DNA from: Alphaproteobacteria bacterium
GTDB lineage: Bacteria > Pseudomonadota > Alphaproteobacteria > UBA8366
Reading direction: 5' to 3'
Assembly (NCBI GenBank): GCA_028281325.1
Contig: JANQKC010000006.1
Location: 62,001 to 126,000 of the forward strand
DNA length: 64,000 bases
The notes beneath the pieces were generated by a model. The model made no database searches. It was not told the origin of the DNA and saw nothing but the letters and a program-made list of their open reading frames with translations. Shown one piece after another: positions 3,052-31,365 of the stretch (position 1 is the stretch's first letter; each line of letters opens with the position of its first letter). The position numbers and the translations under genes are program-made.

Positions 3052-4899
3052 CTACGACCCAACGACGGCGCGGGGACCCGACGGCGGCGCATCGTCGAGC
3101 GCTTGACGCCCGGCTTCGAACTGCAACCGGGCGAGGCGGGCATAGAGACCGCCCTCGGCCAGCAATTCGGCATGCGTGCCGACGGCGACGATCTTCCCCT
3201 CATCCACCACGACGATCCGATCGGCTTTCAGCACGGTCGCCAGCCGGTGCGCGATAACGATCGTCGTCCGGTCCGCCATCAGACGGTCCAATGCCTCTTG
3301 CACCAGACGCTCGGATTCCGCGTCGAGCGCGCTGGTCGCCTCGTCGAGCAACAGCAACGACGGGTCGCGCAAGATCGCCCGGGCAATGGCAATCCGCTGC
3401 CGCTGCCCGCCGGACAGCCGAACCCCACGCTCGCCCAGCTGCGTCGCCATGCCATCCGGCATCGCGTCGATGAACTCATCCGCGGCCGCCGCCTTGACCG
3501 CAGCATCGATTTCCGCCTCGGTCGCGTCCGGCCGGCCGTACCGCACGTTATCCGTCACATCGCAGGAGAAAATGACCGGGTCCTGCGGCACGAAACCGAT
3601 CCGCCCTCGCAAGTCCGTCGGATCGGCATCCCGTATATCGACGCCGTCGACCCGGACCGCCCCATGCTGCGGCTCATAGAACCGCAGCAGAAGCTGCAAC
3701 ACGGTCGTCTTCCCCGCACCCGACGGGCCGACCAGCGCCACCGTTTCGCCCGGGGCGACGTCCAGCGAGAAATCGTCAAGCGCATTGACTTGCGGCCGCG
3801 ACGGGTACTGAAACGTGACGGACTCGAACGCGACCGCGCCCTCCGCCGGTTCCGGAAAGGCGACGGGATCGTCCGGCGCTTGGATTTCCGGTTCCGTTTC
3901 AAGCAATTCGAATAGACGTTCCGCCCCGCCGGCCGCCCGCTGCAGATCGCCCACGACCTCTGAAATCGCGCCGACGGCGCCCGCGACGACGATGGAATAG
4001 AAGACGAAAGCGGACAGGTCGCCGCCCGTCATCTCGCCGGCGATCACCGCACGCCCGCCAAGCCACAAGACGACGCCGATCGCGCCGAAGACCAACAGAA
4101 TGACGATCGCGGTCAACAGCGCCCGCGCCCGAATGCGCCGGATCGAGGTGCGAAAAGCGCTTTCGACCTGATCGCCGAACAGGTGACGGTCGACCGGCTC
4201 ATGCGTGAACGCCTGCATGATCCGGACCGCGTTCAGCGATTCGTCGGCAAAGGAGCTGACATCGGCAATGCGTTCCTGCGTCTCCTTGCTCAGACGACGG
4301 ACCATGCGGCCGATGATGATGATGGGGGCGACAACCAGCGGTACGAACAACAACACATAGCCGGTCAGGATCGGGCTGGTGAAAATCAACAACACCGTGC
4401 CGCCGATGAACAGCAGAATATTACGCAGCGCCACCGACACGGCCGAGCCGATCACCACTTGCAGCAGCGTGGTGTCGGTGGTGAGCCGGGACAACACCTC
4501 CCCGGTCCGCGTCATCTCGAAAAACCCAGGACTCAATCGAATCACATGGGCGAAAACGTCGCGCCGCAAATCCGCCACAACCCGCTCGCCGATCCAGGAC
4601 ACAAGAGAAAACCGGCTATAGGTGGCGACAGCCAGCACGACCACGGCGCCGAGCAGAACCAGCAAGGCGAAGTTCATCAATTCACCATCACCCGCCGCGA
4701 ACCCCTCGTCGATCAGAAAGCGCAGCCCCTGCCCCAACGACAACACGGTCCCCGCGGCGACCACCAGTGCCAGCACGGCCCCGGCGATCTGCAATCGGTA
4801 GGGCTTCAAATAGGCCAACAGCGGGCGCAGCACGCCGATGTTACGGCTGCTCGAACGCTGCTCGGAGGCGGATTTGTCCATGTAAGTGGAATGGCGCAA
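3052..4899 (-). CDS. MsbA-type ABC transporter, fused permease and ATPase
   Basis: About 615 residues. The N-terminal half is a six-helix exporter domain; the C-terminal half has every ATPase motif: Walker A GPSGAGKTT, signature LSGGQRQRIAIA, Walker B LLLLDEATSALD and the switch IAHR. A half-transporter of this kind forms a homodimer and exports lipids, LPS cores or drugs. The start is uncertain: AGGAG sits 7 bases before a TTG at 4899, which I favour, while the first ATG (4881) has no ribosome-binding site and a TTG at 4920 is also in frame. It is convergent with the stator genes, ending 3 bases from them. Confidence 0.87.
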   Translation of the reverse strand: MRHSTYMDKSASEQRSSSRNIGVLRPLLAYLKPYRLQIAGAVLALVVAAGTVLSLGQGLRFLIDEGFAAGDGELMNFALLVLLGAVVVLAVATYSRFSLVSWIGERVVADLRRDVFAHVIRLSPGFFEMTRTGEVLSRLTTDTTLLQVVIGSAVSVALRNILLFIGGTVLLIFTSPILTGYVLLFVPLVVAPIIIIGRMVRRLSKETQERIADVSSFADESLNAVRIMQAFTHEPVDRHLFGDQVESAFRTSIRRIRARALLTAIVILLVFGAIGVVLWLGGRAVIAGEMTGGDLSAFVFYSIVVAGAVGAISEVVGDLQRAAGGAERLFELLETEPEIQAPDDPVAFPEPAEGAVAFESVTFQYPSRPQVNALDDFSLDVAPGETVALVGPSGAGKTTVLQLLLRFYEPQHGAVRVDGVDIRDADPTDLRGRIGFVPQDPVIFSCDVTDNVRYGRPDATEAEIDAAVKAAAADEFIDAMPDGMATQLGERGVRLSGGQRQRIAIARAILRDPSLLLLDEATSALDAESERLVQEALDRLMADRTTIVIAHRLATVLKADRIVVVDEGKIVAVGTHAELLAEGGLYARLARLQFEAGRQALDDAPPSGPRAVVGS

Positions 4900-27660: not shown

Positions 27661-28107
27661 CTAGCAGTCTTCGGGCACGATCAATGTCGCCATCACCGCC
27701 CGTACCGGATCGGGAATCCGGACCGGCCGCCGGTTCTCGCGGTCCACATAGACATGAATGAAATGACCGATGGCAGCGGCGTCGGGATCGTGCTTGCGGA
27801 ACAATCCGACTTCATAGGTCACGCTGGAATTACCCAGCTTCGCGATCCGCAGGCCCGCCTCGACCACCTCGGGAAAGGCCAGTTCCTTGAGGAATTGGCA
27901 TTTGGTCTCGACGACGATGCCGAAGATTTCACCGACGGCGTAGTCGAGCACGCCATGCTCCATGAGATGCCCGTTCACCGCCGTGTCGAAGTAGGAATAG
28001 TAGACGACGTTGTTGACATGGCCGTAGACGTCGTTGTCCATCCAGCGGGTCGGAATGGCGCGGAAATGCGGGTAATGTCCGCGCTCCTTGGGGTCGGAAC
28101 TGCTCAC
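27661..28107 (-). CDS. YbgC/FadM-type acyl-CoA thioesterase
   Basis: A 148-residue hotdog thioesterase. TRWMDNDVYGHVNNVVYYSYFDTAVN contains the catalytic Asp in the expected place. It would cleave cytoplasmic acyl-CoA. The start is a GTG at 28107 that overlaps the stop of the upstream hydrolase (GTGA), with AGGAGA eight bases before it, so translation is coupled. Pairing with an alpha/beta hydrolase suggests they work on related esters. Confidence 0.9.
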   Translation of the reverse strand: MSSSDPKERGHYPHFRAIPTRWMDNDVYGHVNNVVYYSYFDTAVNGHLMEHGVLDYAVGEIFGIVVETKCQFLKELAFPEVVEAGLRIAKLGNSSVTYEVGLFRKHDPDAAAIGHFIHVYVDRENRRPVRIPDPVRAVMATLIVPEDC

Positions 28108-28883
28108 GATCTGGTCTCCTGCACGGCCAACAACGCCTCGACGCAGGCGCCCGGCGCTTCAAGCATCATCATATGCCCGGTTTCCGACAATACGGTCCGG
28201 CCGGCGTCCTTGGCCGCGTGAAGCAACGGCTCCGCCTTATCGGGCGGCGTCATCCGGTCCTCTTCCCCCAACACCAGCAGCATCGGACAGGCAACGTCCG
28301 ACGCCATCGCTTCCGCATCGCGATAAGCGTTGCAGGCCGCGAAATCCGCATACAACGCCCCCGCCGGCGCGCCGGTCACGCAAGCCGCGACCTGCGGCCC
28401 CACATCCCCTTGCGCAGCCCGACCGATCCCCCATTTCGCGATCAACGCCGCGGCTTTGGGATCGTTCGCTTGCGCCATCGCCAGGAGATCCGGATGAACC
28501 GGCATCTGCGACGCTACACCCATCAGCACCGCCGCGGAGACCGCTTGCGGATGCCGGGCCGCCAGGTCGAGGACGACTAGGGCCCCCATCGAATGCCCCA
28601 CGGCGACGACGGGCGCTTTGCCCAGTTCATCGATTGCATCGGCCAGCCAATCCGCCATCTCGCCGATCGTACAGAGCGGGGCGCCGGCGCTCCCTCCATG
28701 GCCCGGCAGATCAACCGCCAGCCAGGGCCGCCCGGCCGCCGTAAGCGCATTTGTTATCGGGGTCCAGACCGTGTGGTCCATCCCGGCGCCATGCAGGAAC
28801 AGCGTGACCGGCGCGTTCGTGCCGGTGTTCGGCACAACGCCTGCTATGCGGACGTTCTGGCCGCGGACGGATACATTTTCCAT
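28104..28883 (-). CDS. Alpha/beta hydrolase
   Basis: A 259-residue alpha/beta hydrolase. VTLFLHGAGMDHTVW holds the oxyanion-hole His-Gly, VAVGHSMGALV the nucleophile Ser, ALGEEDRMTPP-type residues the acid (LVLGEEDRMTPPDKAE) and SETGHMMMLEAP the His. No signal peptide. It overlaps the thioesterase by four bases and is first in a two-gene operon. The substrate is not evident; carboxylesters, lactones or thioesters are all possible. Confidence 0.9.
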   Translation of the reverse strand: MENVSVRGQNVRIAGVVPNTGTNAPVTLFLHGAGMDHTVWTPITNALTAAGRPWLAVDLPGHGGSAGAPLCTIGEMADWLADAIDELGKAPVVAVGHSMGALVVLDLAARHPQAVSAAVLMGVASQMPVHPDLLAMAQANDPKAAALIAKWGIGRAAQGDVGPQVAACVTGAPAGALYADFAACNAYRDAEAMASDVACPMLLVLGEEDRMTPPDKAEPLLHAAKDAGRTVLSETGHMMMLEAPGACVEALLAVQETRS

Positions 28884-28974
28884 GTCTCACCGCTTCGGAC
28901 TTTTGCAGACTGCGTCACCGCGGCGACAGTATCGACAGCGCGACGGCGGCTCAATGGTGCGGGATGATCTGCGG

Positions 28975-29003
28975 AAAAAAAAGCCGAGCCCAGAGGGCTC
29001 GGC
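28975..29003 (-). terminator. Rho-independent terminator on the minus strand
   Basis: GCCGAGCCC and GGGCTCGGC form a perfect 9-base stem with a 3-base loop; read on the minus strand it is followed by eight T residues. It lies 92 bases before the hydrolase start and about 250 bases after the DUF1192 stop, so it ends either a long 3' tail or a separate small RNA. Confidence 0.92.
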
Positions 29004-29100
29004 AAGAGACAGGGAGGTATCAAGTACTAAGTGGATCCGAGAGACCCACGTGAGGCACTTAAGTGGCACAAGTGTGCTGGCCCTGTTATCGCCTCAAACC
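28975..29100 (-). ncRNA. Candidate structured small RNA
   Basis: No gene fits this stretch, yet it ends in a strong terminator and folds on paper. Helices on the minus strand: ACAGGG (29081-29086) with CCCTGT (29009-29014) closing the whole; GCAC-ACTT-GTGC; TAAGTG (29056-29061) with CACTTA (29028-29033); GGGTC with GATCC inside it. An unpaired CCTCCC just before the closing strand resembles the anti-Shine-Dalgarno loops of alphaproteobacterial trans-acting sRNAs. The 5' end near 29100 is a guess. It could instead be the 3' untranslated part of the DUF1192 mRNA. Confidence 0.45.
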
Positions 29101-29256
29101 CCTAACAAAATGTTAACGGCTCGCGCACCGGCAAGATTTTCATAACTATTTGATTTTACGACTATTTATCGGTCAAACCGTCTTTCAGAACGGCCCTCGC
29201 GCCGATGGAAACGCCGGAATTTAGCGTTTATTCGCGGCGGCCAGCGTCCGGCCCGC
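29101..29256. other. Intergenic, no gene seen
   Basis: The stretch between the small-RNA candidate and DUF1192 is relatively AT-rich in its middle (29130-29175). A short inverted repeat TAACA/TGTTA lies at 29103-29116. A promoter for the small RNA should be here, but I cannot point to a convincing pair of boxes. Confidence 0.4.
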
Positions 29257-29439
29257 CTATCTCTTGAAAACGTCCTCGGCCGCGCTGCGATGATCCTTCT
29301 TGGCGGCGATTTCCGCCCGCGCCCGCTCGATCTCGGCTTCCATTTCGGCGATGTAATCCTCCAGAGCGTCGATGGACATCACTTCCAGGTCTTTCGGTTT
29401 CTTCCGCTGGGTTCGCGGTTCAAGATCCTGTTCTTCCAT
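29257..29439 (-). CDS. DUF1192 family small protein
   Basis: A 60-residue protein: a charged head with RTQRKKPKDLEVMSIDALEDYI and a coiled-coil helix AEMEAEIERARAEIAAKKDHRSAAEDVFK. The final K-K-x-x-R-S-A-A-E-x-x-F-K is the DUF1192 signature. GGAGGAA precedes the ATG at 29439. As in other alphaproteobacteria, it neighbours an NADPH:quinone oxidoreductase and the DUF1013 gene. Function is unknown. Confidence 0.88.
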   Translation of the reverse strand: MEEQDLEPRTQRKKPKDLEVMSIDALEDYIAEMEAEIERARAEIAAKKDHRSAAEDVFKR

Positions 29440-29549
29440 GATTTCCTCCGTCGAATCGCGCTGCCGTCTTGCAAGTGTGGTGGCTAGCGGCTAGACCTGC
29501 AACCCTGCTTTCACAAATTCATATCGACCAGGACTCCAGGTAATCCCTC

Positions 29550-30545
29550 ATGACCTTGCCGGATTCAATGACCGTTATCGAAGTGCCCGAAGCGGGCGAC
29601 GCGGACGCCATGACCGTGGGCACGCGCCCGGTGCCGACGCCGGGCCCGAAGGACGTACTGATCAAGGTTGCGGCCGCCGGCGTCAATCGGCCGGACGTGT
29701 TCCAACGCGCGGGCGCCTATCCGCCGCCGCCGGGCGCGACCGATCTGCTGGGCCTGGAAGTCGCCGGAACGGTGGCCGTGGTCGGCGACGCCGTCACCGA
29801 TTGGCGTGTCGGCGACGATGTCTGCGCCCTCACCCCGGGCGGTGGATATGCGGAATACTGCATCACCCCGGCGGCCCACTGCCTGCCGGTGCCCAAGGGA
29901 TACGACATGGTGCAGGCAGGGTCGCTGCCGGAAACCTTCTTTACGGTCTGGCACAACGTGTTCCAACGGGGCGGCCTGCAGGCGGGCGAGACCTTTCTGG
30001 TCCACGGCGGGTCGAGCGGGATCGGAACCACGGCGATCCAGCTCGCCAAGCAGTTCGGCGCAACGGTGATCACCACCGCCGGCAGCGCAGAGAAATGTAA
30101 AGCGTGCGAAGAGCTCGGCGCCGATCTCGCGATCAACTACCGCGAACAGGACTGGCCCGCCGTCGTCAAGGAATTCGCCGGCAAGAAAGGGGTCGACCTG
30201 ATCCTCGACATGGTCGGCGGCGACTACGTCCAGAAGAATCTGAGCTGCCTCGCCTGGGACGGGCGCATCGTCAATATCGCCTTTCTGAAAGGCTCCAAGG
30301 TCGAGGTCAATCTGGCGCTGTTCATGATCAAGCGGCAAACGATGACCGCGTCGACGCTGCGGCCGCAATCGGACGAGGCCAAGGCGGTGATGGCGCGGGA
30401 GCTGCGCGAAAAGGTCTGGCCGCTGCTCGACGAGGGCAAGATCCGCTCGATGGTCTACAAGACCTTCCCGTTGGCCGAGGTCTCGGACGCGCATCGGCTG
30501 ATGGAATCCAGCGCCCATATCGGCAAAATCATGCTGACCGTATGA
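29550..30545 (+). CDS. NAD(P)H-quinone oxidoreductase (zeta-crystallin/PIG3 family)
   Basis: A 331-residue medium-chain reductase without zinc ligands. AAGVNRPDVFQRAGAYPPPPGATDLLGLEVAGTV is typical of the PIG3 branch; the NADPH-binding loop is HGGSSGIGTTAIQLAKQFGA, and the second conserved part is GVDLILDMVGGDYVQKNLSCLAWDGRIV. It reduces quinones by one electron. It is divergent from DUF1192 and followed by trcR 142 bases later, a conserved alphaproteobacterial arrangement. Confidence 0.93.
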   Translation: MTLPDSMTVIEVPEAGDADAMTVGTRPVPTPGPKDVLIKVAAAGVNRPDVFQRAGAYPPPPGATDLLGLEVAGTVAVVGDAVTDWRVGDDVCALTPGGGYAEYCITPAAHCLPVPKGYDMVQAGSLPETFFTVWHNVFQRGGLQAGETFLVHGGSSGIGTTAIQLAKQFGATVITTAGSAEKCKACEELGADLAINYREQDWPAVVKEFAGKKGVDLILDMVGGDYVQKNLSCLAWDGRIVNIAFLKGSKVEVNLALFMIKRQTMTASTLRPQSDEAKAVMARELREKVWPLLDEGKIRSMVYKTFPLAEVSDAHRLMESSAHIGKIMLTV

Positions 30546-30687: not shown

Positions 30688-31365
30688 ATGAATAAACCAT
30701 TGATGCCAAAGGCGACTGCCGTATGGCTCGTCGAGAACACCGCCCTGACATTCGACCAAATCGCCGATTTCTGCGGTCTTCACATGCTTGAAGTCCAGGC
30801 GATCGCCGACGAGGAAGTCGCCATCGGCATGCAGGGGATGGACCCGATCGTCAACGGCCAGGTCACCAAGGAAGAAATTGAGCGTTGCGAAGGCGATCCC
30901 AGCGCCCGCCTCGCCATGTTGAAATCCGACATTCCGCAGCCCACGGCGCGCGGCACCGGGCCGCGATACACGCCCCTGTCGAAACGCCAGGACAAGCCGG
31001 ACGCCATCGCCTGGCTGTTGCGGCATTATCCCGAGCTGTCCGACGCGCAGATCGGCCGCCTGATCGGCACCACCAAGCCGACGATCAATGCGGTCCGCGA
31101 CCGGACCCATTGGAATTCGCCGAACCTGCGGCCGCGCAGCCCGGTGGAATTGGGCCTCAGCAAGCACGAAGATCTCAGCCTTGCGCTGGAAAAGGCGCAG
31201 AAGGCGGCGGCCCGCAAGGCCAAGCGCGAAGGAAAGCAGGCGCCGACGCCGAGCCAATTCCCACCGGCCGGGGAAGGCGCGGAGCCGAAGCCGGAGTTGT
31301 CCGGAGTCGAGCCGCAGTCCGATACGGCGGTGCCGCAGAATCCGTTCCACAACACCACGGATTGA
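30688..31365 (+). CDS. trcR: TrcR-type cell-cycle regulator (DUF1013)
   Basis: A 225-residue DUF1013 protein. KATAVWLVENTALTFDQIADFCGLHMLEVQAIAD is a helix-turn-helix-like N-terminal region, and DAIAWLLRHYPELSDAQIGRLIGTTKPTINAVRDRTHWN is a second. The last 60 residues are Lys-, Ala- and Pro-rich and probably unstructured. Members are conserved throughout alphaproteobacteria and annotated as cell-cycle transcription regulators. The start at 30688 follows GGGGGA; longer in-frame codons upstream do not match the family. Confidence 0.87.
   Translation: MNKPLMPKATAVWLVENTALTFDQIADFCGLHMLEVQAIADEEVAIGMQGMDPIVNGQVTKEEIERCEGDPSARLAMLKSDIPQPTARGTGPRYTPLSKRQDKPDAIAWLLRHYPELSDAQIGRLIGTTKPTINAVRDRTHWNSPNLRPRSPVELGLSKHEDLSLALEKAQKAAARKAKREGKQAPTPSQFPPAGEGAEPKPELSGVEPQSDTAVPQNPFHNTTD

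Follow-up and report, generated by a model that had tools for sequence, protein, structure and literature searches.

A predicted small RNA downstream of DUF1192 in an alphaproteobacterium: a probable divergent relative of BjrC1505 with an anti-Shine-Dalgarno linker and a candidate CtrA site

RNAs of the Rfam family BjrC1505 (RF02356) have a DUF1192 gene just upstream and consist of hairpins, a linker that contains the anti-Shine-Dalgarno sequence CCUCCCUGU, and a terminator. SmelC671 of the Rhizobiales, with its conserved CUCCCUGU single-stranded domain, may be the same family as BjrC1505; the accessible text describes neither a CtrA box nor a sponge for SmelC671 or ReC71 (PMC3927594). The alphaR8 sRNAs MmgR and SisA-D also have a CCUCCCU anti-Shine-Dalgarno core before the terminator, but according to the accessible part of the source they carry the 10-mer UUUCCUCCCU, and the siblings have unrelated promoters (PMC12559287). 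The nearest described case to the one presented here is the sponging of SisA-D by CrfA in Caulobacter. CrfA pairs with the alphaR8 core, in which it resembles the neighbouring RNA that we predict in relatives of our locus, but a single CrfA serves four siblings encoded at separate loci; the partner described here is the next one downstream of its sRNA (PMC12559287, as excerpted). SorX (RF02784) and SorY (RF02651) of Rhodobacter share ACCUCCCUGU before the terminator with our RNA. CcnA of Caulobacter differs, being described in the accessible text as a 182-nt RNA from the replication-origin region that uses a CCCC loop on the ctrA and gcrA leaders (PMC8959179). Two other RNAs were set aside as matches on the basis of partial texts: PmaR, which is described as working without an anti-Shine-Dalgarno region (PMC6234868), and GspR, which is described as conserved within Sinorhizobium/Ensifer and as lacking a known promoter signature (PMC5928217).

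The window (the whole 64,000-nucleotide stretch of DNA that was analysed) encodes an RNA that is probably a divergent BjrC1505-type anti-Shine-Dalgarno sRNA, as judged from its sequence and position, and not an Rfam-defined member. The family is already catalogued (Rfam BjrC1505, perhaps SmelC671). A CtrA box ahead of these RNAs and a linked antisense partner are apparently undescribed features; the accessible portions of the literature searched, with subscription papers mostly outside it, contained no report of a CtrA box, linked sponge, inducer or partner for the BjrC1505/SmelC671 family. The box and a covarying neighbour suggest when the sRNA would be made and what would turn it off.

Structure and conservation of the RNA

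The predicted sRNA is about 104 nt long and lies on the minus strand at 28975-29078, with an inferred 5' end (+/- 3 nt). This assignment rests on a full-length match to a profile model of relatives (R1, below), identity with a sister genome, and the fold. The original prediction had placed an RNA at 28975-29100; the sRNA body itself is shorter, about 29078-28975. Folding of the minus strand from 29080 to 28975 gave a small hairpin (GCAC-ACTT-GTGC, 29066-29077) and a longer hairpin with an interrupted stem (29020-29062), both present in the MFE and centroid structures. These are followed by a single-stranded 16-nt linker (29004-29019), with CCUCCCUGU at 29009-29017 (DNA form CCTCCCTGT), and by an intrinsic terminator (stem-loop 28983-29003) whose stem has nine pairs, eight of them G-C, and runs into eight T (28982-28975). 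The strong minus-strand terminator that had been predicted was therefore borne out. So was the absence of genes from the region, which holds merely overlapping mechanical open reading frames, none of them convincing as a gene. The exposed CCTCCC was also present and predicted to be unpaired (probability 0.98), but in the linker before the terminator and not in a hairpin loop.

The fold was more stable than expected from dinucleotide composition. The free energy of 28975-29080 was -40.9 kcal/mol compared with -24.0 +/- 3.0 kcal/mol for dinucleotide shuffles (z -5.6, none of 200 as good). About half of the folding energy came from the terminator, and with the terminator removed z was -2.8, with one of 200 shuffles as good. 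Among the 50 loci that we folded, CUCCCU was unpaired in 42 and was preceded on its 5' side by at least two hairpins in 38. RNAalifold, applied to aligned relatives, retained terminator pairs only and gave no compensatory changes for the 5' helices.

The RNA was invariant between the two genomes of the genus. We compared the window with the sister genome (G001, MAG OFTM110) and found that all 106 bases of 28975-29080 were identical and that a single base is inserted close to the T run. Identity was 88% in the DUF1192 coding region, 71% across the 140 bp that separate DUF1192 from the CtrA-type box, and 80% in the downstream flank as far as the next start codon. An invariant RNA between diverged flanks is the pattern expected of selection on the RNA. 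The original prediction had named conservation limited to the terminator as the outcome that would count against it; instead, the whole body was invariant and orthologues occupied the same place in other families. A DNA similarity search of 59 genomes (E 0.01) matched four, of which the sister alone aligned along the full length, so a sequence search alone would have suggested a genus-specific RNA.

Orthologues and family assignment

The same anatomy was found downstream of DUF1192 in many relatives. In the window, the DUF1192 gene (PF06698; 29257-29439, minus) is a conserved neighbour directly upstream on the same strand, with about 180 bp from its stop codon to the predicted 5' end of the sRNA. 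On the other side lie an alpha/beta hydrolase gene (28104-28883, minus), in the slot that holds an antisense partner RNA in many relatives, and a thioesterase-superfamily gene (27661-28107, minus), the next conserved neighbour downstream. The gene trcR (PF06242, named in Pfam Transcriptional cell cycle regulator TrcR; 30688-31365, plus) is 1.6 kb off. DUF1192 was detected in 36 of the 42 genomes of the order. The anatomy recurred downstream of it in three other genomes of the window's family (G003, G010 and G005), and was found also in five f4 genomes (G013, G016, G018, G027 and G030) and two f2 genomes (G022 and G039). In G022, DUF1192 was not detected and a dehydrogenase gene is just upstream of the sRNA instead. 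The thioesterase gene lies beyond the sRNA in several orthologous loci, and carriers of the RNA include Dongia deserti and Fodinicurvata fenggangensis.

We built the model R1 from 34 relatives, excluding the window's genus. In A2, 34 of 36 candidates were used (L083 was not located and L071 was left out); the set of 36 omitted the window's genus, L059, L063, L070, L074, L076 and L086. R1 is mainly a sequence model because it includes promoter columns and only six base pairs. The window gave a full-length match to it (model positions 1-153) at 28975-29132, scoring 32.3 bits with an E value of 2.6e-6 for 64 kb, and this locus was its top match genome-wide (E 2e-4). Matches at E 0.01 occurred in 37 of the 42 genomes of the order and were full-length in 30 by our own count of the table. 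The partial matches are probably other sRNAs.

Several orthologues have features of their own. MAG Dino_bin58 (L102) carries tandem BjrC1505-type sRNAs (4145-4302 and 4361-4518, minus; 101.9 and 96.7 bits). The f2 orthologues L014 and L015 have two successive CCTCCC before the terminator, the extra one about 15 nt ahead (oriented positions 1480 and 1487). They also have sub-threshold matches to ROSE-type thermometers (L014 284-378, 32.5 bits; L015 2690-2764, 27.9 bits) near a neighbouring HSP20 gene. In L015 a short-chain dehydrogenase gene (584-1366), 3-hydroxybutyrate dehydrogenase-like by eye, sits next to DUF1192 on the upstream side of the sRNA, and a similar gene, also judged by eye, is downstream of DUF1192 in L044, L052, L055 and L056. 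This neighbour in several f2 genomes drew our attention because the alphaR8 sRNA MmgR acts on polyhydroxybutyrate storage.

The RNA scored below the Rfam thresholds but resembles RF02356 in place and architecture. No family reached its gathering threshold anywhere in the 64-kb window. The best sub-threshold scores were those of SorX (23.8 bits), SorY (21.6), BjrC1505 (21.3), sbrA (20.7) and suhB (20.5), and the alignments of SorX, SorY and BjrC1505 to the window have CCUCCCUGU and the terminator in common. These scores compare with gathering thresholds of 46.6 for SorX, 111 for SorY and 50 for RF02356. Syntenic relatives scored higher against RF02356 (L014 37.9, L015 35.0 and L020 29.0 bits). 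A search of 289 genomes of the class with RF02356 gave a match at E 0.01 in 43, with 13 over threshold; DUF1192 was upstream on the same strand in 12 of these 13 loci, and the thirteenth is near a contig end. Because the Rfam model extends over the part that contains the box in relatives, the transcript of the reference species may begin further upstream. The window has the RF02356-type place, hairpins, unpaired CCUCCCUGU and terminator, and the full-length similarity to R1. It differs from BjrC1505 in a linker that is changed after CCUGU (CUCUUGCC), in the absence of an adjoining antisense partner, and in its score under the gathering threshold. The RNA is therefore related to a described family and does not represent a new kind; the original prediction had recognised no family. 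Its broader suggestion of a trans-acting sRNA of alphaproteobacterial type is still the best reading, given the whole-body conservation and the same-place orthologues, although it missed the family link, misplaced the loop and included a long-range helix that is probably not real (below).

The CtrA-type box and the origin of the transcript

A CtrA-type box is present upstream of the RNA in the window and in most related loci. The site in the window is TTAACA-TTTTG-TTAG (TTAA-N7-TTAG; 29102-29116, minus). Its sequence, TTAACATTTTGTTAG, differs in the last base from TTAA-N7-TTAA and makes it a candidate CtrA site. The CtrA consensus used in a published study is TAA-N7-TTAAC, and sites with other spacings are described in its accessible text as low-affinity in Caulobacter (PMC3616915). 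In 33 of 55 loci, TTAR-N7-TTAR lay in the 85 bp preceding the RNA (shuffles: mean 1.1, maximum 4), a count that is partly selected, as one locus search demanded a box-like pair with a spacing of 6-8 and R1 holds promoter columns, and that includes one duplicate (L128/L081, both without a box). Among the rows not selected for a box (25 from RF02356 and 11 found by synteny or seed pattern), 24 of 36 had it. Other spacings, from 2 to 13, were found in 0-5 loci each, and only N7 was enriched. A CtrA orthologue (73% identity to the query sequence) is encoded in both genomes of the genus. From these sequences, the sRNA seems to be switched on by CtrA.

The long-range ACAGGG/CCCTGT closing helix of the original prediction is probably promoter DNA and not a real RNA helix. 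A predicted -10-like element, GATAAC (29085-29090, minus), is placed 11 bp behind TTAACATTTTGTTAG; it was picked by its position relative to the box, and G022 has TATAAC at the matching place and the sister GATAAA. A sigma-70 consensus scan of 28880-29560 gave no promoter and did not pick up GATAAC. The 5' arm of the helix (29086-29081) overlaps this element (29090-29085), reads AAAGGG in the sister, and paired only when upstream DNA was included in the fold. For these reasons, and from the spacing of the box, we set the 5' end near 29078 and took the helix as promoter sequence. In addition, CCTCCCTGT ends in the CCCTGT arm, which makes the closing helix and an exposed CCTCCC mutually exclusive; the helix would bury CCUCCC.

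We considered whether the RNA could belong to the DUF1192 transcript as 3' UTR plus terminator, yielding no more than a processed 3'-UTR RNA and lacking its own promoter. DUF1192 is on the same strand about 180 bp before the predicted 5' end, and the negative sigma-70 scan is consistent with this reading. However, the box is positioned and spaced as in a CtrA promoter in most loci, DUF1192 and the RNA are separated by another gene in L015 and by 1.3-2.4 kb in f3 genomes, and the 140 bp from DUF1192 to the box are 71% identical to the sister compared with 100% for the RNA. We regard this origin as unlikely. Even less probable is a terminator accompanied by chance structure only: the terminator does supply about half of the folding energy, but the z of -2.8 without it, the identity of 106 of 106 bases and the syntenic relatives make this a very improbable account.

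Membership in the alphaR8 (suhB/MmgR) family, like SisA-D, is also improbable, though less so than chance structure. Both RNAs have CCUCCCU before the terminator, the orthologues in G003 and G010 have UUUCCUCCCU (in G003, AUUUCCUCCCU), and suhB scored 20.5 bits at the window RNA. This score is below the gathering threshold of suhB (RF00519; 41 bits), and a separate true suhB copy with 64.5 bits lies elsewhere in the same genome. The window has AUACCUCCCU and not the 10-mer given in the accessible text (PMC12559287), and its RNA has two 5' hairpins and a DUF1192 neighbour, not an FGase gene.

The predicted neighbouring antisense RNA and the proposed mechanism

Many relatives have an antisense of the sRNA linker just downstream of the sRNA terminator. 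The linker and antisense are CCUGUCCAACUUG with CAAGUUGGACAGG in f4, L015 and L097 (close in G005 and L014), CCUGUCUAACUUGC with GCAAGUUAGACAGG in L122, L123 and L137, CCUGUGCAACUUGCC with GGCAAGUUGCACAGG in L138, CCUGUAAAACUCGCC with GGCGAGUUUUACAGG in L170, and CCUGUUAAACUCG with CGAGUUUAACAGG in L142; the seed listing gave none for L114 and L151. Using a shuffled-sequence control (p <= 0.01 and z <= -2.5), we found that 29 of 57 downstream stretches passed, compared with 1 of 59 upstream stretches and, for the opposite strand, 1 of 57; the same RNAs occur in two collections (L128=L081, L186=L105, L187=L097 and L188=L110), which leaves 26 of 54 distinct loci. For 18 representatives, hand-chosen at about one per clade from 28 partner-positive loci, the summed energy of true pairs was -528.8 kcal/mol; swapped pairs averaged -426.5 kcal/mol, and none of 20,000 permutations reached the value of the true pairs. 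Only 6 of these 18 paired better with their own partner than with the 17 others, because similar seeds are common to many clades. Beyond the antisense come a spacer and then a strong hairpin, in many cases with a T run, so that the RNAs would measure roughly 55-85 nt at most loci; in f4 the terminator of the neighbour RNA is further on. TTGAC-like promoter elements ahead of the antisense were noticed by eye. The covariation with the linker suggests that the neighbour RNA is apparently a linked sponge.

The window's genus has apparently lost this partner. We found no linker antisense in the 260 nt downstream of the window RNA (p 0.565; p 0.49), and no adjoining antisense in the window's genome (G000), G001, G003 or G010. 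The only matches to the pattern GAGACAGG-N0-4-GAGGT in G000 and G001 were on the strand opposite the sRNA itself. In f13 and f124 genomes that lack the partner, a search for a sponge at a remote site gave 12 pattern matches, five on the strand opposite the sRNA and seven without sponge anatomy. The linkers of G000, G001, G003 and G010 are altered after CCUCCCU (CCUGUCUCUUGCC in the window versus CCUGUCUAACUUGCC in L122), and CCUCCCU is kept. This fits a division in which CCUCCCU would serve mRNA targets and the remaining linker the partner. As a counter-case, the partner-less L062, L072 and L102 retain the AAC part, and a remote partner was not found in those tested.

Based on these results, we think it quite probable that the locus encodes a trans-acting BjrC1505-type sRNA of roughly 104 nt that is driven by CtrA, acts by anti-Shine-Dalgarno pairing, and lacks, in the window's genus, the putative sponge of its relatives. 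Conservation, synteny, architecture and the CtrA-type box were computed; CtrA drive, Hfq and target pairing we infer. CtrA would activate transcription from about 29078, and the sRNA would probably be bound by Hfq, as proposed because it ends in U8 and resembles Hfq-bound sRNAs. The CCUCCCUGU(C) / CCUCCCUGUC segment would then pair with purine-rich ribosome-binding sites (GACAGGGAGG) and reduce translation of target mRNAs, plausibly for transport and metabolism. In relatives, the adjacent second small RNA, antisense to the linker, would sponge the sRNA; in the window's genus this partner would have been lost and the part of the linker used only by the partner changed.

We lean, with less assurance, toward the wider proposal that across much of the Alphaproteobacteria the anti-Shine-Dalgarno sRNA downstream of DUF1192 is directly controlled by CtrA and has its own adjacent sponge, separately promoted and terminated and coevolving with it, which the window's genus lost. 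If true, the cell cycle would be linked to translation through an sRNA/anti-sRNA module, of which the window's genus would be a natural sponge-less version, and the retention of an adjacent sponge in different families would offer a compact case of sRNA/anti-sRNA coevolution.

Candidate targets were sought with the pattern ACAGGGAGG before ATG, which gave 12 matches in G000 and 9 in G001; these are leads and weak evidence because the pattern includes ordinary Shine-Dalgarno sequence, and the reversed-pattern control was not a fair one. The pattern lies 3-12 nt ahead of ATG at three genes common to both genomes. One encodes a TctC-like receptor, whose Pfam score of 23.5 bits falls short of the cut-off of 27; the other two encode a rhodanese and an FAA hydrolase. 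In G000 only, the pattern also matched at a gene for a DctP-type receptor.

Two other sRNAs were seen in the window's genome. The true suhB/MmgR (alphaR8) sRNA is at G000:C32:16108-16150 (minus, L009), with 64.5 bits against a gathering threshold of 41. A second RNA with CCTCCCTGT plus terminator (L005, G000:C26:89119-89170, minus; also L003 and L021) has a fixed hairpin, ACGTCTCCCAGACGT; in three genomes of the order it comes after a LysR-type gene. Many of the partial R1 matches (positions 104-153) may be this LysR-linked RNA, which adjoins an apparent molybdopterin sulfoxide reductase gene in two of the three genomes (names assigned by eye).
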